From Aspidapion aeneum (taxonomy: Eukaryota; Arthropoda; Insecta; Coleoptera; Brentidae), in the NCBI GenBank assembly GCA_963576565.1, contig OY755047.1, forward strand, positions 19,475,171 through 19,539,170: a stretch of 64,000 bases of DNA, written 5' to 3'. Numbering within the stretch: the stretch's first letter is position 1; each line of letters opens with the position of its first letter. This document shows, piece by piece, positions 5,865 through 37,155 of the stretch. The notes beneath the pieces were generated by a model, which had not been told where the DNA came from, searched no databases, and saw only the letters and a program-made list of their open reading frames with translations. A program made the position numbers and the translations under genes.

Positions 5865-5866
5865 TA

Positions 5867-6342: not shown

Positions 6343-6398
6343 ATCTTTAAAAATGGCACTCCACACAGTCTTATAAAAAAATTAAAAAAGTTCAAATG

Positions 6399-7470: not shown

Positions 7471-7481
7471 TCAATAAATCA
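7471..7481. other. Left 11-bp direct repeat (candidate target-site duplication)
   Basis: TCAATAAATCA immediately precedes the inverted terminus and is repeated in the same orientation at 37145-37155, immediately after the opposite terminus. An 11-bp duplication is within the 8-11 bp range known for Mutator-like (MULE) elements. Drosophila FB elements make about 9 bp. Confidence 0.7.
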
Positions 7482-7483
7482 TT

Positions 7484-7580
7484 GGTGTGAAACTAGCAGC
7501 CACCTTACAGCAGCCAAAGTGTGAAGTTAGCAGCCACTTACAGCAGCCAAAATGTGAAGTTAGCAGCCACATTTGCCAGC
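7484..7580. repeat. Left terminal minisatellite (unit about 35 bp)
   Basis: Three imperfect units of the type GTGTGAAGTTAGCAGCC + ACTTACAGCAGCCAAA lie at the very end of the element and recur inverted at 37047-37142. The terminal inverted repeat begins within the first unit. Short terminal sub-repeats are a known feature of Foldback ends. Confidence 0.75.
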
Positions 7581-7689
7581 CTAACAAAAAAGTATATTTT
7601 CAAAAATTATTTCATTGAGAAGCTGCAAAAACCTTGGTAAATAACTTTTTTTATTAAGAAATGGAGAATTTGAGAAATTTGGAAAAAAA

Positions 7690-10600
7690 TAAAAAATCCA
7701 AAAAAATTTAAAAGTCCTCTTTAAAAATATAGTTACGCAATGAAACTTGGTAGAGTGTTTAAGTTGCCTACAACTAGTCATCTGTGGAAGCGGCTGCTCC
7801 TTGTTCCCGGTTTAACATGTTCAAATGGAAAAAAATGGAAAAACAGAAAAAAATTCAAAAGTCACCTTCAGAAACATAGTTACGCAATGAAACTTGGTAG
7901 GGTGTTTAAGTAACCTACAACTAGTCATGTGTGTAAGCGGCTGCTACTTGTTCCCGGTTTAACATGGTGAAATGGAAAAAAAATGGAAAATCAGAAAAAA
8001 TTTCAAAAGTCACCTTTAAAAACATAGTTACGCAATGAAACTTGGTAGGGTGTTTAAGTAACCTACAACTAGTCATGTGTGTAAGCGGCTGCTACTTGTT
8101 CCCGGTTTAACATGGTGAAATGGAAAAAAAATGGAAAAACAGAAAAAAAAATAAAAAATCACCTTCAAAAACATAGTTACGCAATGAAACTTGGTAGGGT
8201 GTTTAAGTTGCCTACAACTAGTCATCTGTGGAAGCGGCTGCTCCTTGTTCCCGGTTTAACATGGTGAAATGGAAAAAAAATGGAAAAACAGAAAAAAATT
8301 CAAAAGTCACCTTCAAAAACATAGTTACGCAATGAAACTTAGTATGGTGTTTAAGTGACCTACAACTAGTCATGTGTGTAAGCGGCTGCTACTTGTTCCC
8401 GGTTTAACATGGTGAAATGGAAAAAAAATGGAAAAACAGAAAAAAATTCAAAAGTCACCTTCAAAAACATAGTTACGCAATGAAACTTGGTATGGTGTTT
8501 AAGTGACCTACAACTAGTCATGTGTGTAAGCGGCTGCTACTTGTTCCCGGTTTAACATGGTGAAATGGAAAAGAAATGGAAAAACAGAAAAAAATTCAAA
8601 AGTCACCTTCAAAAACATAGTTACGCAATGAAACTTTGTAGGGTGTTTAAGTAACCTACAGCTAGTCATGTGTGTAAGCGGCTGCTACTTGTTCCCGGTT
8701 TAACATGGTGAAATGGAAAAAAAATGGAAAAACAGAAAAAAATTCAAAAGTCACCTTCAAAAACATAGTTACGCAATGAAACTTGGTAGGTTGTTTAAGT
8801 TGCCTACAACTAGTCATCTGTGGAAGCGGCTGCTCCTTGTTCCCGGTTTAACATGGTGAAATGGAAAAAAAATGGAAAAACAGAAAAAAATTCAAAAGTC
8901 ACCTTCAAAAACATAGTTACGCAATGAAACTTGGTACGGTGTTTAAGTAACCTACAACTAGTCATGTGTGTAAGCGGCTGCTACTTGTTCCCGGTTTAAC
9001 ATGGTGAAATGGAAAAAAAATGGAAAAACAGAAAAAAATTCAAAAGTCACCTTCAAAAACATAGTTACGCAATGAAACTTGGTATGGTGTTTAAGTAACC
9101 TACAGCTAGTCATGTGTGTAAGCGGCTGCTCCTTGTTCCCGGTTTAACATGGTGAAATGGAAAAAAAATGGAAAAACAGAAAAAAATTCAAAAGTCACCT
9201 TCAAAAACATAGTTACGCAATGAAACTTGGTAGGTTGTTTAAGTTGCCTACAACTAGTCATCTGTGGAAGCGGCTGCTCCTTGTTCCCGGTTTAACATGG
9301 TGAAATGGAAAAAAAATGGAAAAACAGAAAAAAATTCAAAAGTCACCTTCAAAAACATAGTTACGCAATGAAACTTGGTACGGTGTTTAAGTAACCTACA
9401 ACTAGTCATGTGTGTAAGCGGCTGCTACTTGTTCCCGGTTTAACATGGTGAAATGGAAAAAAATGGAAAAACAGAAAAAAATTCAAAAGTCACCTTCAAA
9501 AACATAGTTACGCAATGAAACTTGGTATGGTGTTTAAGTAACCTACAGCTAGTCATGTGTGTAAGCGGCTGCTCCTTGTTCCCGGTTTAACATGGTGAAA
9601 TGGGAAAAAAATGGAAAAACAGAAAAAAATTCAAAAGTCACCTTCAAAAACATAGTTACGCAATGAAACTTGGTAGGGTGTTTAAGTTGCCCACAACTAG
9701 TCATCTGTGAAAGCGGCTGCTCCTTGTTCCCGGTTTAACATGGTGAAATGGAAAAAAAATGGAAAAACAGAAAAAAATTCAAAAGTCACCTTCAAAAACA
9801 TAGTTACGCAATGAAACTTTGTAGGATGTTTAAGTAACCTACAACTAGTCATGTGTGTAAGCGGCTGCTACTTGTTCCCGCTTTAACATGGTGAAATGGA
9901 AAAAAAATGGAAAAACAGAAAAAAATTCAAAAGTCACCTTCAAAAACATAGTTACGCAATGAAACTTTGTAGGGTGTTTAAGTAACCTACAACTAGTCAT
10001 GTGTCTAAGCGGCTGCTACTTGTTCCCGGTTTAACATGGTGAAATGGAAAAAAAATGGAAAAACAGAAAAAAATTCAAAAGTTACCTTCAAAAACGTAGT
10101 TACGCAATGAAACTTGGTAGGGTGTTTAAGTTGCCTACAACTACTGATCTGTGAAAGCGGCTGCTCCTTGTTCCCGGTTTAACATGGTGAAATGGAAAAA
10201 AAATGGAAAAACAGAAAAAAATTCAAAAGTCACCTTCAAAAACATAGTTACGCAATGAAACTTGGTAGGGTGTTTAAGTTGCCTACAACTAGTCATCTGT
10301 GGAAGCGGCTGCTCCTTGTTCCCGGTTTAACATGGTGAAATGGAAAAAAAATGGAAAAACAGAAAAAAATTCAAAAGTCACCTTCAAAAACATAGTTACG
10401 CAATGAAACTTGGTAGGGTGTTTAAGTTGCCTACAACTAGTCATGTGTGTAAGCGGCTGCTACTTGTTCCCGGTTTAACATGGTGAAATGGAAAAAAAAT
10501 GGAAAAACAGAAAAAAATTCAAAAGTCACCTTCAAAAACATAGTTACGCAATGAAACTTGGTAGGGATTTTAAGTTGCCTACAACTACTGATCTGTGAAA

Positions 10601-13600
10601 GCGGCTGCTCCTTGTTCCCGGTTTAACATGGTGAAATGGAAAAACAGAAAAAAATTCAAAAGTCACCTTCAAAAACATAGTTACGCAATGAAACTTGGTA
10701 GGGTGTTTAAGTTGCCTACAACTAGTCATCTGTGGAAGCGGCTGCTCCTTGTTCCCGGTTTAACATGGTGAAATGGAAAAAAAATGGAAAAACAGAAAAA
10801 AATTCAAAAGTCACCTTCAAAAACATAGTTACGCAATGAAACTTGGTATGGTGTTTAAGTAACCTACAACTAGACATGTGTGTAAGCGGCTGCTACTTGT
10901 TCCCGGTTTAACATGGTGAAATAGAAAAAAAAATGGAAAAACAGAAAAAAATTCAAAAGTCACCTTCAAAAACATAGTTACGCAATGAAACTTGGTATGA
11001 TGTTTAAGTAACCTACAGCTAGTCATGTGTGTAAGCGGCTGCTACTTGTTCCCGGTTTAACATGGTGAAATGGAAAAAAAATGGAAAAACAGAAAAAAAT
11101 TCAAAAGTCACCTTCAAAAACATAGTTACGCAATGAAACTTGGTAGGGTGTTTAAGTTGCCTACAACTAGTCATGTGTGTAAGCGGCTGCTCCTTGTTCC
11201 CGGTTTAACATGGTGAAATGGAAAAAAATGGAAAAACAGAAAAAAATTCAAAAGTCACCTTCAAAAACATAGTTACGCAATGAAACTTGGTAGGGTGTTT
11301 AAGTTGCCTACAACTAGTCATGTGTGTAAGCGGCTGCTCCTTGTTCCCGGTTTAACATGGTGAAATGGAAAAAAAATGGAAAAACAGAAAAAAATTCAAA
11401 AGTCACCTTCAAAAACATAGTTACGCTATGAAACTTGGCATGGTGTTTAAGTAACCTACAACTAGTCATGTGTGTAAGCGGCTGCTACTTGTTCCCGGTT
11501 TAACATGGTGAAATGGAAAAAAAATGGAAAAACAGAAAAAAATTCAAAAGTCACCTTCAAAAACATAGTTACGCAATGAAACTTGGTATGGTGTTTAAGT
11601 AACCTACAACTAGACATGTGTGTAAGCGGCTGCTACTTGTTCCCGGTTTAACATGGTGAAATAGAAAAAAAAATGGAAAAACAGAAAAAAATTCAAAAGT
11701 CACCTTCAAAAACATAGTTACGCAATGAAACTTGGTATGATGTTTAAGTAACCTACAGCTAGTCATGTGTGTAAGCGGCTGCTACTTGTTCCCGGTTTAA
11801 CATGGTGAAATGGAAAAAAAATGGAAAAACAGAAAAAAATTCAAAAGTCACCTTCAAAAACATAGTTACGCAATGAAACTTGGTATGGTGTTTAAGTAAC
11901 CTACAACTAGTCATGTGTGTAAGCGGCTGCTACTTGTTCCCGGTTTAACATGCTGAAATGGAAAAAAAATGGAAAAACAGAAAAAAATTCAAAAGTCACC
12001 TTCAAAAACATAGTTACGCAATGAAACTTGGTATGGTGTTTAAGTAACCTACAGCTAGTCATGTGTGTAAGCGGCTGCTCCTTGTTTCCGGTTTAACATG
12101 GTGAAATGGAAAAAAAATGGAAAAACAGAAAAAAATTCAAAAGTCACCTTCAAAAACATAGTTACGCAATGAAACTTGGTAGGGTGTTTATGTTGCCTAC
12201 AACTAGTCATCTGTGGAAGCGGCTGCTCCTTGTTCTCGGTTTAACATGGTGAAATGAAAAAAAAATGGAAAAACAAAAAAAAATTCAAAAGTCACCTTCA
12301 AAAACATAGTTACTCAATGAAACTTGGTAGGGTGTTTAAGTTGCCTACAACTAGTCATCTGTGAAAGCGGCTGCTCCTTGTTCCCGGTTTAACATGGTGA
12401 AATGGAAAAAAATGGAAAAACAGAAAAAAATTCAAAAGTCACCTTCAAAAACATAGTTACGCTATGAAACTTGGTATGGTGTTTAAGTAACCTACAACTA
12501 GTCATGTGTGTAAGCGGCTGCTACTTATTCCCGGTTTAACATGGTGAAATGGAAAAAAAAAATGGAAAAACAGAAAAAAATTCAAAAGTCACCTTCAAAA
12601 ACATAGTTACGCAATGAAACTTGGTATGGTGTTTAAGTAACCTACAGCTAGTCATGTGTGTAAGCGGCTGCTCCTTGTTTCCGGTTTAACATGGTGAAAT
12701 GGAAAAAAAATGGAAAAACAGAAAAAAATTCAAAAGTCACCTTCAAAAACATAGTTACGCAATGAAACTTGGTAGGGTGTTTATGTTGCCTACAACTAGT
12801 CATCTGTGGAAGCGGCTGCTCCTTGTTCTCGGTTTAACATGGTGAAATGAAAAAAAAATGGAAAAACAAAAAAAAATTCAAAAGTCACCTTCAAAAACAT
12901 AGTTACTCAATGAAACTTGGTAGGGTGTTTAAGTTGCCTACAACTAGTCATCTGTGAAAGCGGCTGCTCCTTGTTCCCGGTTTAACATGGTGAAATGGAA
13001 AAAAATGGAAAAACAGAAAAAAATTCAAAAGTCACCTTCAAAAACATAGTTACGCTATGAAACTTGGTATGGTGTTTAAGTAACCTACAACTAGTCATGT
13101 GTGTAAGCGGCTGCTACTTATTCCCGGTTTAACATGGTGAAATGGAAAAAAAAAATGGAAAAACAGAAAAAAATTCAAAAGTCACCTTCAAAAACATAGT
13201 TACGCAATGAAACTTGGTAGGGTGTTTAAGTAACCTACAACTAGTCATGTGTGTAAGCGGCTGCTACTTGTTCCCGGTTTAACATGGTGAAATGGAAAAA
13301 AAATGGAAAATCAGAAAAAATTTCAAAAGTCACCTTCAAAAACATAGTTACGCAATGAAACTTGGTAGGGTGTTTAAGTTGCCTACAACTAGTCATCTGT
13401 GGAAGCGGCTGCTCCTTGTTCCCGGTTTAACATGGTAAAATGGAAAAAAATGGAAAAACAGAAAAAAATTCAAAAGTCACCTTCAAAAACATAGTTACGC
13501 TATGAAACTTGGTATGGTGTTTAAGTAACCTACAACTAGTCATGTGTGTAAGCGGCTGCTACTTGTTCCTGGTTTAACATGGTGAAATAGAAAAAAAAAT

Positions 13601-16600
13601 GGAAAAACAGAAAAAAATTCAAAAGTCACCTTCAAAAACATAGTTACGCAATGAAACTTGGTATGGTGTTTAAGTAACCTACAACTAGACATGTGTGTAA
13701 GCGGCTGCTACTTGTTCCCGGTTTAACATGGTGAAATAGAAAAAAAAATGGAAAAACAGAAAAAAATTCAAAAGTCACCTTCAAAAACATAGTTACGCAA
13801 TGAAACTTGGTATGGTGTTTAAGTAACCTACAACTAGTCATGTGTGTAAGCGGCTGCTACTTGTTCCCGGTTTAACATGCTGAAATGGAAAAAAAATGGA
13901 AAAACAGAAAAAAATTCAAAAGTCACCTTCAAAAACATAGTTACGCAATGAAACTTGGTATGGTGTTTAAGTAACCTACAGCTAGTCATATGTGTAAGCG
14001 GCTGCTCCTTGTTTCCGGTTTAACATGGTGAAATGGAAAAAAATGGAAAAACAGAAAAAAATTCAAAAGTCACCTTCAAAAACATAGTTACGCAATGAAA
14101 CTTGGTAGGGTGTTTAAGTAACCTACAACTAGTCATGTGTGTAAGCGGCTGCTACTTGTTCCCGGTTTAACATGGTGAAATGGAAAAAAAATGGAAAATC
14201 AGAAAAAATTTCAAAAGTCACCTTCAAAAACATAGTTACGCAATGAAACTTGGTAGGGTGTTTAAGTAACCTACAACTAGTCATGTGTGTAAGCGGCTGC
14301 TACTTGTTCCCGGTTTAACATGGTGAAATGGAAAAAAAATGGAAAATCAGAAAAAATTTCAAAAGTCACCTTCAAAAACATAGTTACGCAATGAAACTTG
14401 GTAGGGTGTTTAAGTAACCTACAACTAGTCATGTGTGTAAGCGGCTGCTCCTTGTTCCCGGTTTAACATGGTGAAATGGAAAAAAAATGGAAAAACAGAA
14501 AAAAATTCAAAAGTCACCTTCAAAAACATAGTTACGCTATGAAACTTGGCATGGTGTTTAAGTAACCTACAACTAGTCATGTGTGTAAGCGGCTGCTACT
14601 TGTTCCCGGTTTAACATGGTGAAATGGAAAAAAAATGGAAAAACAGAAAAAAATTCAAAAGTCACCTTCAAAAACATAGTTACGCAATGAAACTTGGTAT
14701 GGTGTTTAAGTAACCTACAACTAGACATGTGTGTAAGCGGCTGCTACTTGTTCCCGGTTTAACATGGTGAAATAGAAAAAAAAATGGAAAAACAGAAAAA
14801 AATTCAAAAGTCACCTTCAAAAACATAGTTACGCAATGAAACTTGGTATGATGTTTAAGTAACCTACAGCTAGTCATGTGTGTAAGCGGCTGCTACTTGT
14901 TCCCGGTTTAACATGGTGAAATGGAAAAAAAATGGAAAAACAGAAAAAAATTCAAAAGTCACCTTCAAAAACATAGTTACGCAATGAAACTTGGTATGGT
15001 GTTTAAGTAACCTACAACTAGTCATGTGTGTAAGCGGCTGCTACTTGTTCCCGGTTTAACATGCTGAAATGGAAAAAAAATGGAAAAACAGAAAAAAATT
15101 CAAAAGTCACCTTCAAAAACATAGTTACGCAATGAAACTTGGTATGGTGTTTAAGTAACCTACAGCTAGTCATGTGTGTAAGCGGCTGCTCCTTGTTTCC
15201 GGTTTAACATGGTGAAATGGAAAAAAAATGGAAAAACAGAAAAAAATTCAAAAGTCACCTTCAAAAACATAGTTACGCAATGAAACTTGGTAGGGTGTTT
15301 ATGTTGCCTACAACTAGTCATCTGTGGAAGCGGCTGCTCCTTGTTCTCGGTTTAACATGGTGAAATGAAAAAAAAATGGAAAAACAAAAAAAAATTCAAA
15401 AGTCACCTTCAAAAACATAGTTACTCAATGAAACTTGGTAGGGTGTTTAAGTTGCCTACAACTAGTCATCTGTGAAAGCGGCTGCTCCTTGTTCCCGGTT
15501 TAACATGGTGAAATGGAAAAAAATGGAAAAACAGAAAAAAATTCAAAAGTCACCTTCAAAAACATAGTTACGCAATGAAACTTGGTAGGGTGTTTAAGTT
15601 GCCTACAACTAGTCATGTGTGTAAGTGGCTGCTACTTGTTCCCGGTTTAACATGGTGAAATGGAAAAAAAATGGAAAATCAGAAAAAATTTCAAAAGTCA
15701 CCTTCAAAAACATAGTTACGCAATGAAACTTGGTAGGGTGTTTAAGTTGCCTACAACTAGTCATCTGTGGAAGCGGCTGCTCCTTGTTCCCGGTTTAACA
15801 TGGTAAAATGGAAAAAAATGGAAAAACAGAAAAAAATTCAAAAGTCACCTTCAAAAACATAGTTACGCTATGAAACTTGGTATGGTGTTTAAGTAACCTA
15901 CAACTAGTCATGTGTGTAAGCGGCTGCTACTTGTTCCTGGTTTAACATGGTGAAATGGAAAAAAAAATGGAAAAACAGAAAAAAATTCAAAAGTCACCTT
16001 CAAAAACATAGTTACGCAATGAAACTTGGTATGGTGTTTAAGTAACCTACAACTAGACATGTGTGTAAGCGGCTGCTACTTGTTCCCGGTTTAACATGGT
16101 GAAATAGAAAAAAAAATGGAAAAACAGAAAAAAATTCAAAAGTCACCTTCAAAAACATAGTTACGCAATGAAACTTGGTATGGTGTTTAAGTAACCTACA
16201 ACTAGTCATGTGTGTAAGCGGCTGCTACTTGTTCCCGGTTTAACATGCTGAAATGGAAAAAAAATGGAAAAACAGAAAAAAATTCAAAAGTCACCTTCAA
16301 AAACATAGTTACGCAATGAAACTTGGTATGGTGTTTAAGTAACCTACAGCTAGTCATATGTGTAAGCGGCTGCTCCTTGTTTCCGGTTTAACATGGTGAA
16401 ATGGAAAAAAAATGGAAAAACAGAAAAAAATTCAAAAGTCACCTTCAAAAACATAGTTACGCTATGAAACTTGGTATGGTGTTTAAGTAACCTACAACTA
16501 GTCATGTGTGTAAGCGGCTGCTACTTGTTCCCGGTTTAACATGGTGATATGGAAAAAAAATGGAAAAACAGAAAAAAATTCAAAAGTCACCTTCAAAAAC

Positions 16601-19600
16601 ATAGTTACGCAATGAAACTTGGTAGGGTGTTTAAGTTGCCTACAACTAGTCATCTGTGAAAGCGGCTGCTACTTGTTCCCGGTTTAACATGGTGAAATGG
16701 AAAAAAAATGGAAAAACAGAAAAAAATTCAAAAGTCACCTTCAAAAACATAGTTACGCAATGAAACTTGGTAGGGTGTTTAAGTTGCCTACAACTACTGA
16801 TCTGTGAAAGCGGCTGCTCTTTGTTCCCGGTTTAACATGGTGAAATGGGAAAAAAATGGAAAAACAGAAAAAAATTCAAAAGTCACCTTCAAAAACATAG
16901 TTACGCAATGAAACTTGGTAGGGTGTTTAAGTTGCCCACAACTAGTCATCTGTGAAAGCGGCTGCTCCTTGTTCCCGGTTTAACATGGTGAAATGGAAAA
17001 AAAATGGAAAAACAGAAAAAAATTCAAAAGTCACCTTCAAAAACATAGTTACGCAATGAAACTTTGTAGGATGTTTAAGTAACCTACAACTAGTCATGTG
17101 TGTAAGCGGCTGCTACTTGTTCCCGCTTTAACATGGTGAAATGGAAAAAAAATGGAAAAACAGAAAAAAATTCAAAAGTCACCTTCAAAAACATAGTTAC
17201 GCAATGAAACTTTGTAGGGTGTTTAAGTAACCTACAACTAGTCATGTGTCTAAGCGGCTGCTACTTGTTCCCGGTTTAACATGGTGAAATGGAAAAAAAA
17301 TGGAAAAACAGAAAAAAATTCAAAAGTTACCTTCAAAAACGTAGTTACGCAATGAAACTTGGTAGGGTGTTTAAGTTGCCTACAACTACTGATCTGTGAA
17401 AGCGGCTGCTCCTTGTTCCCGGTTTAACATGGTGAAATGGAAAAAAAATGGAAAAACAGAAAAAAATTCAAAAGTCACCTTCAAAAACATAGTTACGCAA
17501 TGAAACTTGGTAGGGTGTTTAAGTTGCCTACAACTAGTCATCTGTGGAAGCGGCTGCTCCTTGTTCCCGGTTTAACATGGTGAAATGGAAAAAAAATGGA
17601 AAAACAGAAAAAAATTCAAAAGTCACCTTCAAAAACATAGTTACGCAATGAAACTTGGTAGGGTGTTTAAGTTGCCTACAACTAGTCATGTGTGTAAGCG
17701 GCTGCTACTTGTTCCCGGTTTAACATGGTGAAATGGAAAAAAAATGGAAAAACAGAAAAAAATTCAAAAGTCACCTTCAAAAACATAGTTACGCAATGAA
17801 ACTTGGTAGGGATTTTAAGTTGCCTACAACTACTGATCTGTGAAAGCGGCTGCTCCTTGTTCCCGGTTTAACATGGTGAAATGGAAAAAAATGGAAAAAC
17901 AGAAAAAAATTCAAAAGTCACCTTCAAAAACATAGTTACGCAATGAAACTTGGTAGGGTGTTTAAGTTGCCTACAACTAGTCATCTGTGGAAGCGGCTGC
18001 TCCTTGTTCCCGGTTTAACATGGTGAAATGGAAAAAAAATGGAAAAACAGAAAAAAATTCAAAAGTCACCTTCAAAAACATAGTTACGCAATGAAACTTG
18101 GTAGGGTGTTTAAGTTGCCTACAACTAGTCATGTGTGTAAGCGGCTGCTACTTGTTCCCGGTTTAACATGGTGAAATGGAAAAAAAATGGAAAAACAGAA
18201 AAAAATTCAAAAGTCACCTTCAAAAACATAGTTACGCAATGAAACTTGGTATGGTGTTTAAGTAACCTACAGCTAGTCATGTGTGTAAGCGGCTGCTCCT
18301 TGTTTCCGGTTTAACATGGTGAAATGGAAAAAAATGGAAAAACAGAAAAAAATTCAAAAGTCACCTTCAAAAACATAGTTACGCAATGAAACTTGGTAGG
18401 GTGTTTAAGTAACCTACAACTAGTCATGTGTGTAAGCGGCTGCTACTTGTTCCCGGTTTAACATGGTGAAATGGAAAAAAAATGGAAAATCAGAAAAAAT
18501 TTCAAAAGTCACCTTCAAAAACATAGTTACGCAATGAAACTTGGTAGGGTGTTTAAGTAACCTACAACTAGTCATGTGTGTAAGCGGCTGCTACTTGTTC
18601 CCGGTTTAACATGGTGAAATGGAAAAAAAATGGAAAATCAGAAAAAATTTCAAAAGTCACCTTCAAAAACATAGTTACGCAATGAAACTTGGTAGGGTGT
18701 TTAAGTAACCTACAACTAGTCATGTGTGTAAGCGGCTGCTCCTTGTTCCCGGTTTAACATGGTGAAATGGAAAAAAAATGGAAAAACAGAAAAAAATTCA
18801 AAAGTCACCTTCAAAAACATAGTTACGCTATGAAACTTGGCATGGTGTTTAAGTAACCTACAACTAGTCATGTGTGTAAGCGGCTGCTACTTGTTCCCGG
18901 TTTAACATGGTGAAATGGAAAAAAAATGGAAAAACAGAAAAAAATTCAAAAGTCACCTTCAAAAACATAGTTACGCAATGAAACTTGGTATGGTGTTTAA
19001 GTAACCTACAACTAGACATGTGTGTAAGCGGCTGCTACTTGTTCCCGGTTTAACATGGTGAAATAGAAAAAAAAATGGAAAAACAGAAAAAAATTCAAAA
19101 GTCACCTTCAAAAACATAGTTACGCAATGAAACTTGGTATGATGTTTAAGTAACCTACAGCTAGTCATGTGTGTAAGCGGCTGCTACTTGTTCCCGGTTT
19201 AACATGGTGAAATGGAAAAAAAATGGAAAAACAGAAAAAAATTCAAAAGTCACCTTCAAAAACATAGTTACGCAATGAAACTTGGTATGGTGTTTAAGTA
19301 ACCTACAACTAGTCATGTGTGTAAGCGGCTGCTACTTGTTCCCGGTTTAACATGCTGAAATGGAAAAAAAATGGAAAAACAGAAAAAAATTCAAAAGTCA
19401 CCTTCAAAAACATAGTTACGCAATGAAACTTGGTATGGTGTTTAAGTAACCTACAGCTAGTCATGTGTGTAAGCGGCTGCTCCTTGTTTCCGGTTTAACA
19501 TGGTGAAATGGAAAAAAAATGGAAAAACAGAAAAAAATTCAAAAGTCACCTTCAAAAACATAGTTACGCAATGAAACTTGGTAGGGTGTTTATGTTGCCT

Positions 19601-24737: not shown

Positions 24738-25088
24738 ACTATTCTGCTTGGACCGTAGTGTCTTAATCTGGCAAGGCTTTCGTGATTTTCAATAACAGCC
24801 AGGCTAATTTTCTCAATATACATATGCTATAATCTAGCATGTTAAAAATTTAAAAACTAGGAATTTAAATTAAAAAATCCACTAATTTTCCAATTTTCAA
24901 GACGCCGCACCGCCAGATGCATTTATCAACTTTGTAAATCAGCCAGACTTAGTTTACGTATTTTATCGTGCGTGTATTATAGCATCAATTCGAATCCACA
25001 AATTTTCAGCTAGACGTAGTTGCCACCACTTAATATGAGCCAGTTTGCTTTTCTTATAATGTTCGTAATCTCTTATTCTTCGGGTCGG

Positions 25089-25211
25089 TTTATCAATAGA
25101 GGGTTAGCCCTGACCCGTAAGTTACCTTTGATAGCTTTCTTTTTTGGCATGTGGTAAATGTCAGTCATCTTTTTTTAACCCACGGGTCAGGGCTAACCCT
25201 CTATTGATAAA
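25089..25211. mobile_element. 123-bp MITE with perfect 30-bp TIRs
   Basis: Positions 25089-25118 (beginning TTTATCAATAGAGGGTTAGC) are the exact reverse complement of 25182-25211. The 63-base centre has no coding content. No flanking duplication is evident. It sits in the fold-back spacer and so may be a later insertion. Confidence 0.7.
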
Positions 25212-26599
25212 GCGGCCCTTAGTATGAAAGATTTAGAAATAAGAAGACTCATGCCATTTTTTAATATTTAGTAAAATCATCGCCAAACTGAAAAATTTTT
25301 GATTATTATCACCAACATACCTACTAATTCACACCTACTAAGAAAATAAGTTTCAAAAAAATTTACTGCCTCCCCGACTATTACCAAAGTTACACCACGG
25401 AGGTGATCCGTGGTTACACAGCTCTGTTTCCAAAATGCAGATACATAATCCCGATTAGGGCTGCCACCTGTCCGCCCAAAACCAATCCGGTTTTTTTATG
25501 AATACGTCTCTGTGTATATCGTGGAAAAAAATTACATAGTAGTGTTTATTATTTTCGCCACTGTTATTGTTTTCAGCATTTTTAATTGCTCAGTTCGTGA
25601 GATATCTACTTTTTAGACCAGGCAATTGTCACAATGATCTGGCAGTATGTTGGAAAATTAATGTAAATAGAGGTGTGTATTTCTGTAGCCCGTTGAGAAT
25701 ACAGGAGGTGGCGTGGGAACACTCCTACTTTTCAGCTACCGCTAAATATTATTATTAAATTTACCTGCGCGTCATTTTTTAAAATTTTCCATAAAAACTA
25801 CTTTATTTTCAAAAAACATATCGCGGCGAATTCTATTGTCAAATTTAAAAGCTAACACTGATAAAAACATTTAAAAAAAAAAACAAATATTTTAGATTTT
25901 TCGCGCTCCTTGGCCTCTTCCTTAGGGAAGAATTCTTTTAAAACAAAAAATCTTATAAAATGTCATATACCAAAATCATGAGAATTTATACTTGATTTAG
26001 TCATACGGTTTTTAAACATTTCTCTTAAAATCTTTTAAATTTGCACAGGGCATCTGAAAAATCTAAAACCCATTTCTCACACAATAAGATTTTGTTACAA
26101 AACGACACAATAAATACAACTTTTCAGGAAACGCAAATAACTGACGATATGATTTTTTGTAGCTTTTGCTTTTTTCTATAAATACATCTAGTTCTAAGCA
26201 CGATTTATCAATTTTTTTTGGGATGCTTGTGAGATGCGTGTCTATTGTGACTTAGTAAAGCACTTCCGCCTACATGATGAAAATTTTGCTTTCATTTCAT
26301 TACCAATGGATATTTAGGTGTACTTTTTTGACTTAGGTCTTGGGGTAGCTCATTTTCTCGTTGAAGCAATGAATGTATTAAAAATGTAATGAGTTTTTCC
26401 GGATATTTTAATCGGTTTTTTTTGCAGCTCTTTGTTATTTCTTAATCCTTTAAGGTGGTAACCCTAATAAAGCTGGGTCCGAGAACTAGAAAGTGCACTT
26501 CAAAGACACAGGTAGCAAACGGTAGTCCCTCGCAAATTAATTATATAACAGGAAATTCCAAAATAGTAATTTTAAGGGTCGTACTTATACAGAACCCGC

Positions 26600-26735
26600 T
26601 TATAATAAAATAGAGGGTTTATAGTACAATGAATAGAGGAGTTTTACCCTACAAAAAGCCGATAAAGTTATCTTATATAAAGCGGCATAATAGTTCCATG
26701 AATAGAGGTCAAAATAGGGGGGTTACCCTACAAAA
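26600..26735 (+). repeat. Imperfect tandem duplication in the spacer
   Basis: A unit of about 69 bp occurs twice: AATGAATAGAGG...TTTACCCTACAAAAAG near 26629 and CATGAATAGAGG...GTTACCCTACAAAAGG near 26698. It is non-coding. Confidence 0.5.
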
Positions 26736-27427
26736 GGTCCGGTAGTTCTGAATTTTGGATATATTGTTAAGCTCAGTAGGGTACTTAAAAATCTGTTTTC
26801 GTCACCCCCACCCCTGTGCTCCCTCCGCCATCTTAAAAAAACCATCAAAAATTGGCACTTTTTTAGTTTTTTGCCTTTAATTTCGTTCCAGTACACTAAA
26901 TCGCAAAAAGAGTTATATGAAATTTTTTAGAGGATATAATTATCTACAATTGGGTGGTACTATAGTTGTTCTGCGAGCAGTAGTAACGGACCTAGGTAAT
27001 TTCCAAAAATGACTAAAATCACGTGCTTGGGCAAATTTTCAGATTTTTTCTACTTTAGACGGCATAAGCTCCGAAATACTTTCTTCTAGGGTAAAAGTTC
27101 TAAGAACATATCTTGTAGAGAATTTTATCAGCTACAACATCCATTCTTTAAATGTATTTTTAAATATTGTAATGGAGTGGGAGTAACTTTTAACTTAAAG
27201 TAAGTTAAAAAATAATATTTTTTTAAAATTTAGTGCTTTAAACGGCACGTTTTTTATTTATTTATATTTTTTGTATAAATTTAGTGACGTACAAAACGGT
27301 AAGCGAGCTTAGGGGTCAAACACCTCCTTAAACTAACTACCTCTTCAAAGACCCCCCCAGACCCCCCAAAATCTAACATATTCAGGTTTTCTCAAATTTT
27401 ATCAAAAAATACGCTTCTAAGTTCTTC

Positions 27428-28274
27428 TAATTTTTTTCTCGTTAATGACTGCAAATAATTTATTTTGTAGTTTAGAATTTACATGCCAATGACACACGAG
27501 GTTCAGGGCGAGGGGAAAAAGTGCATTTTCGATGAAAAATATCTCTTTCTAGAATTTTAAATTTATTACTTACCATGTCTAATGACGAACATTAAAATAA
27601 ACTGCAAGGTCTCTAAACAAAAAAAAACGAGACCACTATGCTAAAATAAGCCATCTTCTTCTTATTTGTATGTCGGTATTAGGAACATTAACATAATTGA
27701 ATGTGCCATATTGACGAACATCTGATAAGTCTGGCAAGGCTTTGGGGATTTCAAATAGTAGACAGATGGTATTTTAAGCTAGTTATAAAACAACCCATCA
27801 TTTAATAAACTTTCACAACTAAAAAATAAGGGCACGCATTTCATCATCTTAATTTAGTATACCTTTTACTAGTACTATTTTTATACTATTTTATATTTTT
27901 AAAGCCACAAAAAAGTTATTATTATATCTTCTGATGCGTTTTCTGTCTAAACCGGAAACCATCCCTAGCATATAACTAATTTTCCTTAGACTTGCTCAAT
28001 AATTCATACTATCGATGTTTGCTGAGTTAGAAATAAATTCTAAAAAAGGTCCCAGACTATAACTATCTAAGGCGATCTTAAAAGTTAATTTGTAGTTATT
28101 AGCTTTATGTCTAAATATATTTATAAATGTGATTTTTTATATTTTTCTTGTTCTTAATTTCTTGTGTATTTATTTATGTTAAATACATAAATATGGGGGT
28201 GATGCTTACAGAGTTTACTACTTGTAAAGTATGTACCTAGTTAAAGCAGATAAGAGCCAAGGTTGCTCTTTTCG
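27428..28274. repeat. Inner unique part of the right arm
   Basis: Reverse complement of 23891-24737, including the CAATGACACACGAGG and GGTTTCCGGTTTAGAC landmarks in inverted order. The match ends abruptly at TAATTTTTTTCTCGTTAA, which defines the loop edge. Confidence 0.85.
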
Positions 28275-31200
28275 GCTTAAACACCCTACCAAGTTAAATT
28301 GCGTAAATATATTTTTTAACGTGACTATTGAATTTTCTTCTGTTTTTCCATTTTTTTTTCCATTTGACCATGTTAAACCGGGAACAAGTAGCAGCCGCTT
28401 ACACACATGACTAGTTGTAGGTTACTTAAACACCCTACCAAGTTTCATTGCGTAACTATGTTTTTGAAGGTGACTTTTGAAATTTTTTCTGATTTTCCAT
28501 TTTTTTTCCATTTCACCATGTTAAACCGGGAACAAGTAGCAGCCGCTTACACACATGACTAGTTGTAGGTTACTTAAACACCCTACCAAGTTTCATTGTG
28601 TAACTATGTTTTTGAAGGTGACTTTTGAAATTTTTTCTGATTTTCCATTTTTTTTCCATTTCACCATGTTAAACCGGGAACAAGTAGCAGCCGCTTACAC
28701 ACATGACTAGTTGTAGGTTACTTAAACACCCTACCAAGTTTCATTGCGTAACTATGTTTTTGAAGGTGACTTTTGAAATTTTTTCTGATTTTCCATTTTT
28801 TTTCCATTTCACCATGTTAAACCGGGAACAAGTAGCAGCCGCTTACACACATGACTAGTTGTAGGCAACTTAAACACCCTACCAAGTTTCATTGCGTAAC
28901 TATGTTTTTGAAGGTGACTTTTGAATTTTTTTCTGTTTTTCCATTTTTTTTCCATTTCACCATGTTAAACCGGGAACAAGGAGCAGCCGCTTTCACAGAT
29001 GACTAGTTGTAGGCAACTTAAACACCCTACCAAGTTTAATTGCGTAACTATGTTTTGAAGGTGATTTTTGAATTTTTTTTTGTTTTTCCATTTTTTTTTC
29101 ATTTCACCATGTTAAACCGAGAACAAGGAGCAGCCGCTTCCACAGATGACTAGTTGTAGGCAACTTAAACACCCTACCAAGTTTCATTGCGTAACTATGT
29201 TTTTGAAGGTGACTTTTGAATTTTTTTCTGTTTTTCCATTTTTTTTCCATTTCACCATGTTAAACCGGAAACAAGGAGCAGCCGCTTACACACATGACTA
29301 GCTGTAGGTTACTTAAACACCATACCAAGTTTCATTGCGTAACTATGTTTTTGAAGGTGACTTTTGAATTTTTTTCTGTTTTTCCATTTTTTTTTCCATT
29401 TCAGCATGTTAAACCGGGAACAAGTAGCAGCGGCTTACACACATGACTAGTTGTAGGTTACTTAAACACCATACCAAGTTTCATTGCGTAACTATGTTTT
29501 TGAAGGTGACTTTTGAATTTTTTTCTGTTTTTCAATTTTTTTTCCATTTCACCATGTTAAACCGGGAACAAGGAGCAGCCGCTTCCACAGATGACTAGTT
29601 ATAGGCAACTTAAACACCCTACCAAGTTTCATTGCGTAACTATGTTTTTGAAGGTGACTTTTGAATTTTTTTCTGTTTTTCCATTTTTTTTCCATTTCAC
29701 CATGTTAAACCGGGAACGAGGAGCAGCCGCTTTCACAGATCAGTAGTTGTAGGCAACTTAAACACCCTACCAAGTTTCATTGCGTAACTATGTTTTTGAA
29801 GGTGACTTTTGAATTTTTTTCTGTTTTTCCATTTTTTTTCCATTTCACCATGTTAAACCGGGAACAAGTAGCAGCCGCTTTCACAGATGACTAGTTGTAG
29901 GCAACTTAAACACCCTACCAAGTTTCATAGCGTAACTATGTTTTTGAAGGTGACTTTTGAATTTTTTTCTGTTTTTCCATTTTTTTTCCATTTCACCATG
30001 TTAAACCGGGAACAAGTAGCAGCCGCTTAGACACATGACTAGTTGTAGGTTACTTAAACACCCTACAAAGTTTCATTGCGTAACTATGTTTTTGAAGGTG
30101 ACTTTTGAATTTTTTTCTGTTTTTCCATTTTTTTTCCATTTAACCATGTTAAACCGGGAACAAGTAGCAGCCGCTTACACACATGACTAGCTGTAGGTTA
30201 CTTAAACATCCTACAAAGTTTCATTGCGTAACTATGTTTTTGAAGGTGACTTTTGAATTTTTTTCTGTTTTTCCATTTTTTTTCCATTTCACCATGTTAA
30301 ACCGGGAACAAGGAGCAGCCGCTTTCACAGATGACTAGTTGTGGGCAACTTAAACACCCTACCAAGTTTCATTGCGTAACTATGTTTTTGAAGGTGACTT
30401 TTGAATTTTTTTCTGTTTTTCCATTTTTTTTCCATTTCACCATGTTAAACCGGGAACAAGGAGCAGCCGCTTACACACATGACTAGCTGTAGGTTACTTA
30501 AACACCCTACAAAGTTTCATTGCGTAACTATGTTTTTGAAGGTGACTTTTGAATTTTTTTCTGTTTTTCCATTTTTTTCCATTTCACCATGTTAAACCGG
30601 GAACAAGTAGCAGCCGCTTACACACATGACTAGTTGTAGGTTACTTAAACACCGTACCAAGTTTCATTGCGTAACTATGTTTCTGAAGGTGACTTTTGAA
30701 TTTTTTTCTGTTTTTCCATTTTTTTCCATTTCACCATGTTAAACCGGGAACAAGGAGCAGCCGCTTCCACAGATGACTAGTTGTAGGCAACTTAAACAAC
30801 CTACCAAGTTTCATTGCGTAACTATGTTTTTGAAGGTGACTTTTGAATTTTTTTCTGTTTTTTCATTTTTTTTCCATTTCACCATGTTAAACCGGGAACA
30901 AGTAGCAGCCGCTTACACACATGACTAGTTGTGGGCAACTTAAACACCCTACCAAGTTTCATTGCGTAACTATGTTTTTGAAGGTGACCTTTGAATTTTT
31001 TTCTGTTTTTCCATTTTTTTTTTCCATTTCACCATGTTAAACCGGGAACAAGTAGCAGCCGCTTACACACATGACTAGTTGTAGGTTACTTAAACACCCT
31101 ACCAAGTTTCATTGCGTAACTATGTTTTTGAAGGTGACTTTTGAAATTTTTTCTGATTTTCCATTTTTTTTCCATTTCACCATGTTAAACCGGGAACAAG

Positions 31201-34200
31201 TAGCAGCCGCTTACACACATGACTAGTTGTAGGTTACTTAAACACCCTACCAAGTTTCATTGCGTAACTATGTTTTTGAAGGTGACTTTTGAAATTTTTT
31301 CTGATTTTCCATTTTTTTTCCATTTCACCATGTTAAACCGGGAACAAGTAGCAGCCGCTTACACACATGACTAGTTGTAGGCAACTTAAACACCCTACCA
31401 AGTTTCATTGCGTAACTATGTTTTTGAAGGTGACTTTTGAATTTTTTTCTGTTTTTCCATTTTTTTTTCCATTTCACCATGTTAAACCGGGAACAAGGAG
31501 CAGCCGCTTTCACAGATGACTAGTTGTAGGCAACTTAAACACCCTACCAAGTTTCATTGCGTAACTATGTTTTGAAGGTGACTTTTGAATTTTTTTTTGT
31601 TTTTCCATTTTTTTTTCATTTCACCATGTTAAACCGAGAACAAGGAGCAGCCGCTTCCACAGATGACTAGTTGTAGGCAACTTAAACACCCTACCAAGTT
31701 TCATTGCGTAACTATGTTTTTGAAGGTGACTTTTGAATTTTTTTCTGTTTTTCCATTTTTTTTCCATTTCACCATGTTAAACCGGAAACAAGGAGCAGCC
31801 GCTTACACACATGACTAGCTGTAGGTTACTTAAACACCATACCAAGTTTCATTGCGTAACTATGTTTTTGAAGGTGACTTATGAATTTTTTTCTGTTTTT
31901 CCATTTTTTTTTCCATTTCAGCATGTTAAACCGGGAACAAGTAGCAGCCGCTTACACACATGACTAGCTGTAGGTTACTTAAACACCATACCAAGTTTCA
32001 TTGCGTAACTATGTTTTTGAAGGTGACTTTTGAATTTTTTTCTGTTTTTCCATTTTTTTTCCATTTCACCATGTTAAACCGGGAACAAGGAGCAGCCGCT
32101 TCCACAGATGACTAGTTGTAGGCAACTTAAACACCCTACCAAGTTTCATTGCGTAACTATGTTTTTGAAGGTGACTTTTGAATTTTTTTCTGTTTTTCCA
32201 TTTTTTTTCCATTTCACCATGTTAAACCGGGAACAAGGAGCAGCCGCTTTCACAGATCAGTAGTTGTAGGCAACTTAAACACCCTACCAAGTTTCATTGC
32301 GTAACTATGTTTTTGAAGGTGACTTTTGAATTTTTTTCTGTTTTTCCATTTTTTTTCCATTTCACCATGTTAAACCGGGAACAAGGAGCAGCCGCTTCCA
32401 CAGATGACTAGTTGTGGGCAACTTAAACACCCTACCAAGTTTCATTGCGTAACTATGTTTTTGAAGATGACTTTTGAATTTTTTTCTGTTTTTCCATTTT
32501 TTTTCCATTTCACCATGTTAAACCGGGAACAAGGAGCAGCCGCTTACACACATGACTAGCTGTAGGTTACTTAAACACCATACCAAGTTTCATTGCGTAA
32601 CTATGTTTTTGAAGGTGACTTTTGAATTTTTTTCTGTTTTTCCATTTTTTTCCATTTCACCATGTTAAACCGGGAACAAGTAGCAGCCGCTTACACACAT
32701 GACTAGTTGTAGGTTACTTAAACACCGTACCAAGTTTCATTGCGTAACTATGTTTCTGAAGGTGACTTTTGAATTTTTTTCTGTTTTTTAATTTTTTTCC
32801 ATTTCACTATGTTAAACCGGGAACAAGGAGCAGCCGCTTCCACAGATGACTAGTTGTAGGCAACTTAAACAACCTACCAAGTTTCATTGCGTAACTATGT
32901 TTTTGAAGGTGACTTTTGAATTTTTTTGTGTTTTTTCATTTTTTTTCCATTTCACCATGTTAAACCGGGAACAAGTAGCAGCCGCTTACACACATGACTA
33001 GTTGTAGGCAACTTAAACACCCTACCAAGTTTCATTGCGTAACTATGTTTTTGAAGGTGACCTTTGAATTTTTTTCTGTTTTTCCATTTTTTTTTCCATT
33101 TCACCATGTTAAACCGGGAACAAGGAGCAGCCGCTTCCACAGATGACTAGTTGTAGGCAACTTAAACAACCTACCAAGTTTCATTGCGTAACTATGTTTT
33201 TGAAGGTGACTTTTGAATTTTTTTCTGTTTTTCCATTTTTTTCCATTTCACCATGTTAAACCGGGAACAAGGAGCAGCCGCTTTCACAGATGACTAGTTG
33301 TGGGCAACTTAAACACCCTACCAAGTTTCATTGCGTAACTATGTTTTTGAAGGTGACCTTTGAATTTTTTTCTGTTTTTCCATTTTTTTTCCATTTCACC
33401 ATGTTAAACCGGGAACAAGGAGCAGCCGCTTCCACAGATGACTAGTTGTAGGCAACTTAAACAACCTACCAAGTTTCATTGCGTAACTATGTTTTTGAAG
33501 GTGACTTTTGAATTTTTTTCTGTTTTTCCATTTTTTTTTCCATTTCACCATGTTAAACCGGGAACAAGTAGCAGCCGCTTTCACAGATGACTAGTTGTAG
33601 GCAACTTAAACACCCTACAAAGTTTCATTGCGTAACTATGTTTTTGAAGGTGACTTTTGAATTTTTTTCTGTTTTTCCATTTTTTTTTCCATTTCACCAT
33701 GTTAAACCGGGAACAAGTAGCAACCGCTTACATACATGACTAGTTGTAGGCAACTTAAACACCCTACCAAGTTTCATTGCGTAACTATGTTTTTGAAGGT
33801 GACTTTTGAATTTTTTTCTGTTTTTCCATTTTTTTTCCATTTCACCATGTTAAACCGGGAACAAGGAGCAGCCGCTTTCACAGATCAGTAGCTGTAGGCA
33901 ACTTAAACACCCTACCAAGTTTCATTGCGTAACTATGTTTTTGAAGGTGACTTTTGAATTTTTTTCTGTTTTTCCATTTTTTTTCCATTTCACCATGTTA
34001 AACCGGGAACAAGTAGCAGCCGCTTTCACAGATGACTAGTTGTAGGCAACTTAAACACCCTACCAAGTTTCATTGCGTAACTATGTTTTTGAAGGTGACT
34101 TTTGAATTTTTTTCTGTTTTTCCATTTTTTTTTCCATTTCACCATGTTAAACCGGGAACAAGTAGCAGCCGCTTACACACATGACTAGTTGTAGGTTACT

Positions 34201-36910
34201 TAAACACCATACCAAGTTTCATTGCGTAACTATGTTTTTGAAGGTGACTTTTGAATTTTTTTCTGTTTTTCCATTTTTTTTCCATTTCACCATGTTAAAC
34301 CGGGAACAAGTAGCAGCCGCTTACACACATGACTAGTTGTAGGTTACTTAAACACCATACCAAGTTTCATTGCGTAACTATGTTTTTGAAGGTGACTTTT
34401 GAATTTTTTTCTGTTTTTCCATTTTTTTTCCATTTCACCATGTTAAACCGGGAACAAGTAGCAGCCGCTTACACACATGACTAGTCGTAGGTTACTTAAA
34501 CACCATACCAAGTTTGATTGCGTAACTATGTTTTTGAAGGTGACTTTTGAATTTTTTTCTGTTTTTCCATTTTTTTTCCATTTCACCATGTTAAACCGGG
34601 AACAAGTAGCAGCCGCTTACACACATGACTAGTTGTAGGTTACTTAAACACCCTACAAAGTTTCATTGCGTAACTATGTTTTTGAAGGTGACTTTTGAAT
34701 TTTTTTCTGTTTTTCCATTTTTTTTCCATTTCACCATGTTAAACCGAGAACAAGTAGCAGCCGCTTACACACATGACTAGCTGTAGGCAACTTAAACACC
34801 CTACCAAGTTTCATTGCGTAACTATGTTTTTGAAGGTGACTTTTGAATTTTTTTCTGTTTTTCCATTTTTTTTCCATTTCACCATGTTAAACCGGGAACA
34901 AGGAGCAGCCGCTTCCACAGATGACTAGTTGTAGGCAACTTAAACACCCTACCAAGTTTCATTGCGTAACTATGTTTTTGAAGGTGACTTTTGAATTTTT
35001 TTCTGTTTTTCCATTTTTTTTCCATTTCACCATGTTAAACCGGGAACAAGGAGCAGCCGCTTCCACAGATGACTAGTTGTAGGCAACTTAAACACCCTAC
35101 CAAGTTTCATTGCGTAACTATGTTTTTGAAGGTGACTTTTGAATTTTTTTCTGTTTTTCCATTTTTTTTCCATTTCACCATGTTAAACCGGGAACAAGTA
35201 GCAGCCGCTTTCACAGATGACTGGTTGTAGGCAACTTAAACACCCTACCAAGTTTCATTGCGTAACTATGTTTTTGAAGGTGACTTTTGAATTTTTTTCT
35301 GTTTTTCCATTTTTTTTCCATTTCACCATGTTAAACCGGGAACAAGTAGCAGCCGCTTACACACATGACTAGTTGTAGGTTACTTAAACACCATACCAAG
35401 TTTCATAGGGTAACTATGTTTTTGAAGGTGACTTTTGAATTTTTTTCTGGTTTTCCATTTTTTTCCATTTCACCATGTTAAACCGGGAACAAGGAGCAGC
35501 CGCTTCCACAGATGACTAGTTGTAGGCAACTTAAACAACCTACCAAGTTTCATTGCATAACTATGTTTTTGAAGGTGACTTTTGAATTTTTTTCTGTTTT
35601 TCCATTTTTTTTCCATTTCACCATGTTAAACCGGGAACAAGGAGCAGCCGCTTTCACAGATGACTAGTTGTAGGCAAGTTAAACACCCTACCAATTTTCA
35701 TTGCGTAACTATGTTTTTGAAGGTGACTTTTGAATTTTTTTCTGTTTTTCCATTTTTTTCCATTTCACCATGTTAAACCGGGAACAAGTAGCAGCCGCTT
35801 ACACACTTGGCTTGTTGTAGGTTACTTAAACACCATACCAAGTTTCATTGCGTAACTATGTTTTTGAAGGTGACTTTTGAATTTTTTTCTGTTTTTCCAT
35901 TTTTTTTCCATTTCACCATGTTAAACCGGGAACAAGTAGCAGCCGCTTACACACATGACTAGTTGTAGGTTACTTAAACACCATACCAAGTTTCATTGCG
36001 TAACTATGTTTTTGAAGGTGACTTTTGAATTTTTTTCTGTTTTTCCATTTTTTTTTCCATTTCACCATGTTAAACCGGGAACAAGGAGCAGCCGCTTCCA
36101 CAGATGACTAGTTGTAGGCAACTTAAACAACCTACCAAGTTTCATTGCGTAACTATGTTTTTGAAGGTGACTTTTGAATTTTTTTCTGTTTTTCCATTTT
36201 TTTTCCATTTCACCATGTTAAACCGGGAACAAGTAGCAGCCGCTTACACACATGACTAGTTGTAGGTCACTTAAACACCATACTAAGTTTCATTGCGTAA
36301 CTATGTTTTTAAAGGTGACTTTTGAATTTTTTTCTGTTTTTCCATTTTTTTTCCATTTCACCATGTTAAACCGGGAACAAGGAGCAGCCGCTTCCACAGA
36401 TGACTAGTTGTAGGCAACTTAAACACCCTACCAAGTTTCATTGCGTAACTATGTTTTTGGAGGTGATTTTTGATTTTTTTTTCTGTTTTTCCATTTTTTT
36501 TCCATTTCACCATGTTAAACCGGGAACAAGTAGCAGCCGCTTACACACATGACTAGTTGTAGGTTACTTAAACACCCTACCAAGTTTCATTTCGTAACTA
36601 TGTTTTTGAAGGTGACTTTTGAAATTTTTTCTGATTTTCCATTTTTTTTCCATTTCACCATGTTAAACCGGGAACAAGTAGCAGCCGCTTACACACATGA
36701 CTAGTTGTAGGTTACTTAAACACCCTACCAAGTTTCATTGCGTAACTATGTTTCTGAAGGTGACTTTTGAATTTTTTTCTGTTTTTCCATTTTTTTTCCA
36801 TTTGAACATGTTAAACCGGGAACAAGAAGCAGCCGCTTCCACAGATGACTAGTTGTAGGCAACTTAAACACTCTACCAAGTTTCATTGCGTAACTATATT
36901 TTTAAAGAGG
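28275..36910 (-). repeat. Right-arm 148-bp satellite array (about 58 monomers)
   Basis: The same monomer as the left array, in the opposite orientation (CCATGTTAAACCGGGAACAA on the plus strand). It carries several rare variants also present in the left arm, such as AAACCGAGAACAAGG (29,115 and 31,630) and AAACCGGAAACAAGG (29,265 and 31,785). The arms therefore share variants and have not evolved independently. It is about half the length of the left array. Confidence 0.92.
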
Positions 36911-37046
36911 ACTTTTAAATTTTTTTGGATTTTTTATTTTTTTCCAAATTTCTCAAATTCTCCATTTCTTAATAAAAAAAGGTATTTACCAAGGTTTTTG
37001 CAGCTTCTCAATGAAATAATTTTTGAAAATATACTTTTTTGTTAGG

Positions 37047-37142
37047 CTGCCAAATGTGGCTGCTAACTTCACATTTTGGCTGCTGTAAGTGGCTGCTAAC
37101 TTCACACTTTGGCTGCTGTAAGGTGGCTGCTAGTTTCACACC
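37047..37142. repeat. Right terminal minisatellite
   Basis: Inverted counterpart of 7484-7580, with repeated GGCTGCTGTAAG and GGCTGCTAACTTCACA words ending in TTTCACACC at the element boundary. Confidence 0.75.
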
Positions 37143-37144
37143 GG

Positions 37145-37155
37145 TCAATAAATCA
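37145..37155. other. Right 11-bp direct repeat (candidate target-site duplication)
   Basis: TCAATAAATCA in the same orientation as at 7471-7481. Removing 7482-37144 plus one repeat copy would join 7481 to 37156 as a simple AT-rich locus. Confidence 0.7.

Follow-up and report, generated by a model that had tools for sequence, protein, structure and literature searches.

Within the 64,000-nucleotide stretch of the genome of the beetle Aspidapion aeneum analyzed here (contig 10, positions 19475171–19539170; hereinafter the window), positions 7481–37145 form a 29.7-kb hairpin in which outer domains, satellite arms and inner domains are arrayed around a 2.7-kb loop. We posit, at a probability of roughly 0.93, that this is a non-autonomous foldback transposon belonging to a large and recently active family, and that its satellite arms travel with the element and change length in place between jumps. 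Satellite-armed foldback elements are an already known kind, with Tetris, Rehavkus-1_TC and Tm1 as precedents; what the present family adds is its size (an arm with 109 counted monomers, up to ~154 by distance, spans of up to 39 kb and intact duplications), its number, and a direct reading of array movement and change from sister insertions. The spread of satellites by riding transposons has usually been argued from short arrays and shared fragments. Here, arrays of ~4–16 kb at different insertion sites can be matched monomer by monomer along extended ordered stretches, which makes movement and later change separable, and datable.

The window element is flanked by a 9-bp target site duplication, CAATAAATC, with its left copy at 7472–7480 and its right copy at 37146–37154 (both plus strand), as delimited by comparing the ends of 42 elements (see below). 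Inside it lie asymmetric 3-nt termini, ATT on the left (7481–7483, plus strand) and GGT on the right (37143–37145, minus strand; ACC when read inward). These are followed by the left outer domain (7484–7699, plus strand), in which a 33-bp subterminal repeat is present in ~2.6 copies and the motif AGCAGCC occurs five times, and its counterpart on the minus strand at 36927–37142; the two domains (~216 bp) agree at 214 of 217 alignment columns. The left satellite array (7700–23889, plus strand) comprises ~109 copies of a 148-bp monomer and the right array (28276–36926, minus strand) ~58 copies. Internal to these, the 848-bp left inner domain (23890–24737, plus strand) and its inverted copy (27428–28275, minus strand; 843/848 identical) bracket the noncoding loop of 2690 bp (24738–27427, plus strand), which has no open reading frame (ORF) longer than 72 aa and for which a comparison of ten ORFs with Pfam returned nothing convincing (best E 0.21). 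A small inverted repeat within the loop (25052–25247, ~70% alike) is possibly a nested miniature inverted-repeat transposable element (MITE). The first-pass annotation had described a near-perfect inverted repeat with arms of 17 and 10 kb built from a 148-bp satellite: the arms indeed measure 17.25 kb (left) and 9.72 kb (right), and the near-perfection holds for the unique outer and inner domains but not for the arrays, which differ in copy number and align at ~95%.

To place this element in its family, we searched the whole assembly of 1,286,157,303 bases in 149 contigs; other copies are designated below by contig number and position (e.g., C1:19086991). The terminal 21-mer, with up to two mismatches, matches the genome at 267 places (145 forward and 122 reverse) as compared to none for the reversed control. 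One hundred of these places, all exact, were listed on contigs 1–4 and on contig 5 up to 77.5 Mb (ends with one or two mismatches were counted only), and 82 of them form 41 pairs of neighboring, converging ends. Together with the window element these make 42 elements spanning 612–39,240 bp, with 28 longer than 10 kb and the window element being the fourth longest. Copies of the window's outer domain at 99–100% identity are likewise present elsewhere in the genome, with 40 scored matches in this range (457 candidates at first look). The element C5:77477116, when read through, displays the same plan as the window element, with 74–75 and 72–73 monomers in its arms and a 9-bp duplication. Another copy read through, C1:117452006, consists of an outer domain, 18 monomers, 14 inverted monomers and an outer domain within a perfect duplication; it lacks both inner domain and loop, its monomer blocks standing back-to-back. 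Two further copies, C5:56869716 and C5:30915218, have ~12–13 kb between their inner junctions as compared to the usual 4–5 kb, perhaps by virtue of nested insertions or a different core. The unpaired exact terminus at C1:149052993 departs from the family after ~25 bases, and represents either a truncated copy or another element with a like end. Beyond this genome, the element terminus has no exact match in public viral contigs, nor has the 148-bp satellite one in public viral contigs and prokaryote genomes.

The ends of these copies also settle the length of the target duplication. The 11-mer TCAATAAATCA occurs exactly twice in the window, in direct orientation, at 7471 and 37145, with GGTGTGAAAC occurring once at 7484 and its complement once at 37133. 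The chance of such an 11-base flank match is ~7e-7 per placement; among random 20-base flank pairs, 22 of 20,000 reach a match of at least 11, some of these being drawn from repeats. The 11-mer had been annotated as an 11-bp target duplication with the inverted termini directly inside it, a reading that we dropped for one of 9 bp upon examining the ends of the 41 other elements: adjoining terminal bases (A in ATT, T in GGT) lengthen CAATAAATC to 11 by chance, and two bases (TT on the left, GG on the right) intervene between the 11-mer and the inverted termini. Across all 42 elements the end plan is 9 bp of flank, then ATT or ACC, then GGTGTG. Moreover, in 36 of the 42 an ATT terminus at one end is paired with an ACC terminus at the other, and therefore the element is polar outside its inverted repeat. 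The 9-bp duplication is perfect in 30 elements (19 of which are longer than 10 kb) and agrees at 8 of 9 bases in three more, in line with the expectation in the first-pass annotation that other copies of the terminus would be flanked by duplications of 9–11 bp; none of 1722 mismatched left/right end pairs used as a control agrees at 8 or 9 bases. The joined flanks of C1:61013446 match a repeat copy at window positions 4955–4711 across the join (92.7% over 246 columns, 2 gaps), and this stretch is a related empty site; for seven other elements the joined flanks found no match in the sequences searched (one of eight positive overall). The repeat family that provides this site is represented in the window by a MITE-like inverted repeat (55 bp, 96%) at 4709–5208.

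Some long-read libraries are known to yield inverted duplications as an artefact. Given that our analysis was made from the assembly only, one might suppose that a foldback read or a collapsed repeat has been drawn as a hairpin. However, the two window arms differ in both copy number and monomer order, a target duplication is present in the flanks, and dozens of paired termini with differing spans and duplications are found at separate places. Hence, we consider such an artefact extremely improbable, and return to the transposon as the preferred explanation.

The arms vary widely in length across the family. A 25-mer at the junction of array and inner domain is found at 46 forward and 43 reverse places in the genome (control 0). 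For the 21 of the 41 pairs with both junctions, and for the window element (n = 22), arm length was taken as a distance divided by 148; the remaining 20 pairs, including C1:117452006, have one or no listed junction and fall outside this set. The 22 elements have arms of ~9–154 monomer lengths (median 48), with the maximum being by distance only in an arm not itself read, and the arms constitute 39–88% of the element. These estimates agree with the counted monomers in the window element (109/58), C1:19086991 (33/46) and C5:77477116 (74/72). An insertion within an arm inflates the distance, as in C1:2675461, whose right arm measures 75 by distance and contains a 1.8-kb stretch without the satellite core. 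With regard to where the satellite sits, a conserved monomer 17-mer has 5185 exact places in the genome; among the 100 listed, which cover the first 15.7 Mb of contig 1, 91 are in element C1:2675461 and nine in C1:15733584, as would be expected if the satellite lives in the transposon. The mean monomer distance is slightly smaller within than between elements (7.5–7.7 within the window element, 7.8–8.5 from it to C5:77477116), as sampled in 67 arm pieces (874 monomers), with some places being covered twice.

Evidence for the movement of entire arrays comes from comparing, in register, 48 different arm ends that were each represented by eight or more monomers (1128 pairs; 10 repeat-place ends and the shorter ones were dropped). 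Seven of the 1128 pairs match at all eight monomers, each with at most two differences, and four sister groups are seen: C1:19086991/C5:86625601 (at both ends), window/C4:111280252/C7:34321060, C2:26239910/C3:44165687 and C2:128316776/C7:81754755. The C1/C5 and window/C7:34321060 sisters were followed through their arms. The former pair occupies C1:19086991–19103505, with the duplication ATATGGGAG, and C5:86625601–86647599, with GGAGGGTTA/GGAGGGTCA. In their left arms 27 monomers (of 33 and 27) can be aligned with 2 substitutions in 3995 positions and one six-monomer gap, and in their right arms the first 29 monomers (of 46 and 43) show 0 substitutions in 4292, after which the order is lost. 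The sister of the window element, C7:34321060–34344815, lies in the opposite orientation with the duplication GTTAAAATT at both ends. Its right arm aligns with the window left arm over 66 monomers (of 70 and 109, respectively) with 46 substitutions in 9748 (0.47%), and its left arm with the window right arm over 37 monomers (of 57 and 58, respectively) with 28 substitutions in 5471 (0.51%). The third member, C4:111280252, differs from the window left arm at one position over the first eight monomers, and further inward the match is broken, at 4.4% over 28 units (one miscut). The four corresponding arm pairs score 73.5, 55, 70.5 and 87, as compared to at most 18 in 40 order shuffles of each and at most 10 for non-corresponding arms. 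In two of these pairs the shared order persists as far as the array's inner end; in the remaining two it extends over roughly the outer two thirds, and the last six units of the window right and C7 left arms match again. Near-equal spans (26,549/26,567 and 17,897/17,911) were also considered as a sign of sisterhood and rejected, the 6 kb of one arm that was compared being only ~94–95% alike.

In both of the followed pairs the flanks and duplications differ between the sisters, and therefore these did not arise by duplicating a segment of chromosome. Instead, as the sisters hold the same ordered arrays at different, unrelated sites, long arrays and not the ends alone were carried to new sites, bearing out the earlier suggestion that a satellite array had moved as part of a transposon. 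The shared order might alternatively have been given by ectopic exchange or conversion between dispersed copies after insertion. The monomer pools are weakly differentiated between elements and between the window arms (label permutation fraction 0.016), and array order changes quickly even in the youngest sisters, both of which would suit such exchange. However, both arms correspond in both sister pairs, for which conversion would need parallel replacement of the two arms, and the outer domains of corresponding sister arms show 0 substitutions as against 2 between the window's own two arms; thus, we find this quite improbable. The family is recent, with sister copies separated by 2 substitutions in 8.3 kb, and could therefore be studied in living populations and in reads.

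Between such jumps the arrays have changed in place. The window left arm has 43 monomers without a partner in C7:34321060, 34 of which have an identical twin in that same arm, as expected from block duplication there, with loss in C7 also being possible. In turn, the C7 arms contain units missing from the window element. The C1/C5 sisters, with their 2 substitutions in 8.3 kb, have already acquired a gap of six monomers and a rearrangement of the inner right arm, and to judge from these comparisons array structure turns over much faster than bases change. The suggestion in the first-pass annotation that the array grew thus also finds backing in the left-arm blocks that are missing from the sister and are mostly exact copies of the arm's own units. 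Within that arm, monomers 26–32 repeat as 47–53 (0 differences in 1036 bp), 47–54 as 76–83 (0 in 1184) and 43–55 as 72–84 (2 in 1924). Counting runs of at least three monomers with at most one difference, 48 of its 109 monomers are redundant, as compared to at most 6 in 200 order shuffles; the right arm has no such copies among its 58 monomers at one difference or fewer, and 16 at three differences as against at most 15 in shuffles. The near-identical blocks look younger than the last equality of the arms, if rates are alike, because the matching unique parts of the two arms differ at 7 of 1064 positions. For other duplicated blocks, the difference either lies nearer to the divergence between the arms (P 0.016 and 0.049) or exceeds it (0.79% and 0.84%).

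These near-identical blocks, and the internal twins of the monomers unmatched in the sister, are also what one would expect had a small element inserted and its arrays grown later in place without ever moving. Yet independent growth is not expected to yield the long ordered arrays common to the sisters. Hence, growth alone is very improbable as an explanation, and we see the change in place as real but secondary to movement with the transposon.

The two arms of the window element have mostly lost their common order. On average, its monomers are ~7.2 differences apart (of 148 positions) when taken from the same arm and 7.3 when taken from opposite arms, which comprise 109 and 58 monomers. The register between the arms is clear only for the outermost five (2, 1, 3, 1 and 0 differences). 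Accordingly, collinearity of the two arms of one element was rejected beyond five monomers. At a cut-off of three differences there is a weak trace of shared order, with 36 of the 58 right monomers lying in short runs as compared to at most 33 in 200 shuffles.

Several points weigh against a moving, transposase-driven family. No transposase was found in the window element among the loop ORFs or by Pfam, and none of the 37 places with a domain typical of Mutator-like elements (MULEs) in the part of the genome with listed exact ends lies inside the 41 pairs. Eighteen of the 100 listed ends are unpaired. Nine of the 42 pairs are without a duplication in the expected register; three of these (C1:151966904, C4:66826904 and C5:30915218) have a match of 9–12 bases with the register shifted by at least one base, leaving six with no convincing duplication in any register. 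An empty allele of the window insertion is absent from the assembly, where a search with its joined flanks recovers nothing but these same flanks and ten matches that are short and partial. In two of the four sister arm pairs the common order extends over only a portion of the array (29 of 46/43 and 37 of 58/57 monomers). Finally, the array lengths come from one assembly without reads, and just two of the 22 measured elements were read from end to end, with both arms having been read in one of the other 20.

As for the class of the element, its long inverted repeats hold tandem repeats whose length varies between arms and copies (in the elements read and, by distance, in the 22 measured), its many dispersed copies have common termini, and a short target duplication of constant length (9 bp) stands at both ends, all of which are features of foldback elements. 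The target duplications of MULEs have a range reaching 8–11 bp, within which the 9 bp seen here falls, and the long terminal inverted repeats (TIRs), subterminal repeats and asymmetric termini also accord with Mutator. Polintons/Mavericks have a 6-bp duplication and genes for a DNA polymerase and an integrase; the 9-bp duplication and the loop's want of any ORF longer than 72 aa set the element apart from them. Its duplication likewise separates it from the Helitrons/Helentrons, which produce none on insertion (PMC7492417).

Based on the duplication length, subterminal repeats and asymmetric termini, as in Tm1 and the Aedes MULEs, we infer that a Mutator-type transposase probably acts in trans. 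The first-pass annotation had already taken an 11-bp duplication to indicate a MULE transposase supplied from elsewhere; of this, the length fell and the lack of a transposase inside the element stood, with the MULE identity being suggested by duplication length and end structure. In this scheme, a Mutator-type transposase made elsewhere would bind the subterminal repeats and mobilize the entire element together with its arrays by cut-and-paste; each arm would then gain and lose length through unequal exchange or replication slippage, such that the satellite would spread through transposition with length change in place between jumps. Unequal exchange or slippage is the simplest source of the block changes, and the data fit either. 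The genome has 66 places with MULE domains, many with open frames. Among these, seven places on contigs 1, 5, 7 and 9 have an equal score (48.3 bits) and a common 358-aa frame, and constitute an apparently recently active family.

The subterminal repeat and the satellite monomer share the motif TGTAAGYGGCTGCTA at 14 of 15 positions, a level reached by 2 of 300 shuffles and by none of 400 flanking 148-mers. In the monomer and the outer domain the motif has opposite orientations. Among the 148 monomer windows, its 11-base core ranks second in conservation but the 15-base window only 125th, the monomers not being independent of each other. The 7-base GGCTGCT is present in 165 of the 167 window monomers and, in the other arms read, in 56/57, 70/70, 33/33, 39/46, 27/27, 36/43 and 37/37. 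We treat this sharing as a lead only. It hints at a more elaborate possibility, wherein the satellite is obligate to the transposon and aids its movement: the arms would grow into long putative transposase-binding arrays (via GGCTGCT, kept in nearly every monomer) that jump as units and may leave behind satellite-only palindromes seeding chromosomal satellite. We hold this to be unlikely on present evidence.

The comparisons that follow are by description. In Tetris/TIR-220 of Drosophila virilis, a non-autonomous foldback element, a noncoding middle is framed by inner, tandem-repeat and outer domains, and the duplications are of 8–10 bp (PMC4079207). Its TIRs reach 1,735 bp, three structurally complete copies were found, and TIR-220 arrays have up to 66 copies, with fibre fluorescence in situ hybridization revealing long arrays between two outer domains (PMC4079207). 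It resembles the window family in domain plan and duplication size. By contrast, the window element has been followed from end to end, with 109 monomers in one arm, 58 in the other and its duplication intact, and sister copies give a direct view of array movement. In another beetle, Tribolium castaneum, the 9.5-kb DNA transposon Rehavkus-1_TC comparably carries a 164-bp satellite, TCsat23, in its inverted termini, with at most nine monomers (PMC10218199). The Mutator/Foldback element Tm1 of root-knot nematodes has 9-bp duplications, asymmetric short motifs outside the inverted repeat and unequal numbers of tandem repeats in its arms (PMC3169594), all three being paralleled in the window family. 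However, Tm1 has 7-bp terminal motifs, ~14-bp repeats and a known putative transposase-coding group (PMC3169594).

Further parallels are seen in other mobile elements. Galileo, of the P superfamily, has very long TIRs and, in one 9-kb copy, ~140-bp direct repeats, but its duplications are of 7 bp, rarely 8, and its arrays of two to nine repeats (PMC4168063). The Cg_HINE Helentrons of the Pacific oyster are similarly mobile elements that spread satellite-like arrays through the genome; yet they are rolling-circle elements without duplications, with a longest array of ~29 monomers (PMC7492417). The MULEs, for which target duplications of 8–10 bp are given (PMC5225508), include Muta1 and other Aedes elements with long TIRs, subterminal tandem repeats and 8–9 bp duplications. 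Unlike the window element, Muta1 is autonomous and 3.2 kb long, and the Aedes subterminal repeats are of 9–15 bp (PMC5225508). No sequenced satellite foldback of the size described here was found in the literature searched, most subscription papers and Repbase being beyond reach.

The window also contains other repetitive features. A long terminal repeat (LTR) retroelement at 40072–47731 has three long minus-strand ORFs (550, 1231 and 472 aa) and identical 219-bp direct repeats at its ends. Its 1231-aa ORF encodes reverse transcriptase, RNase H and integrase domains, and its first ORF has 16 relatives, the sole named one being from the beetle Hypothenemus hampei (46% identity). At 505–6683 lies an older long inverted-repeat element, with arms ~78–96% alike in pieces and a 65-bp repeat that is present twice close to either end, which is possibly a second, decayed foldback-like element. 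An inverted (GTCT)n microsatellite cluster flanks 115–119 bp tandem repeats at 50145–52440, with a related piece at 1–204, and a separate 169-bp satellite, which also fits a 339-bp dimer, occupies 52760–55920 in ~16–20 copies with breaks. A tRNA-Ser (aga) gene is found at 6783–6855 on the plus strand, ~0.6 kb from the foldback insertion.

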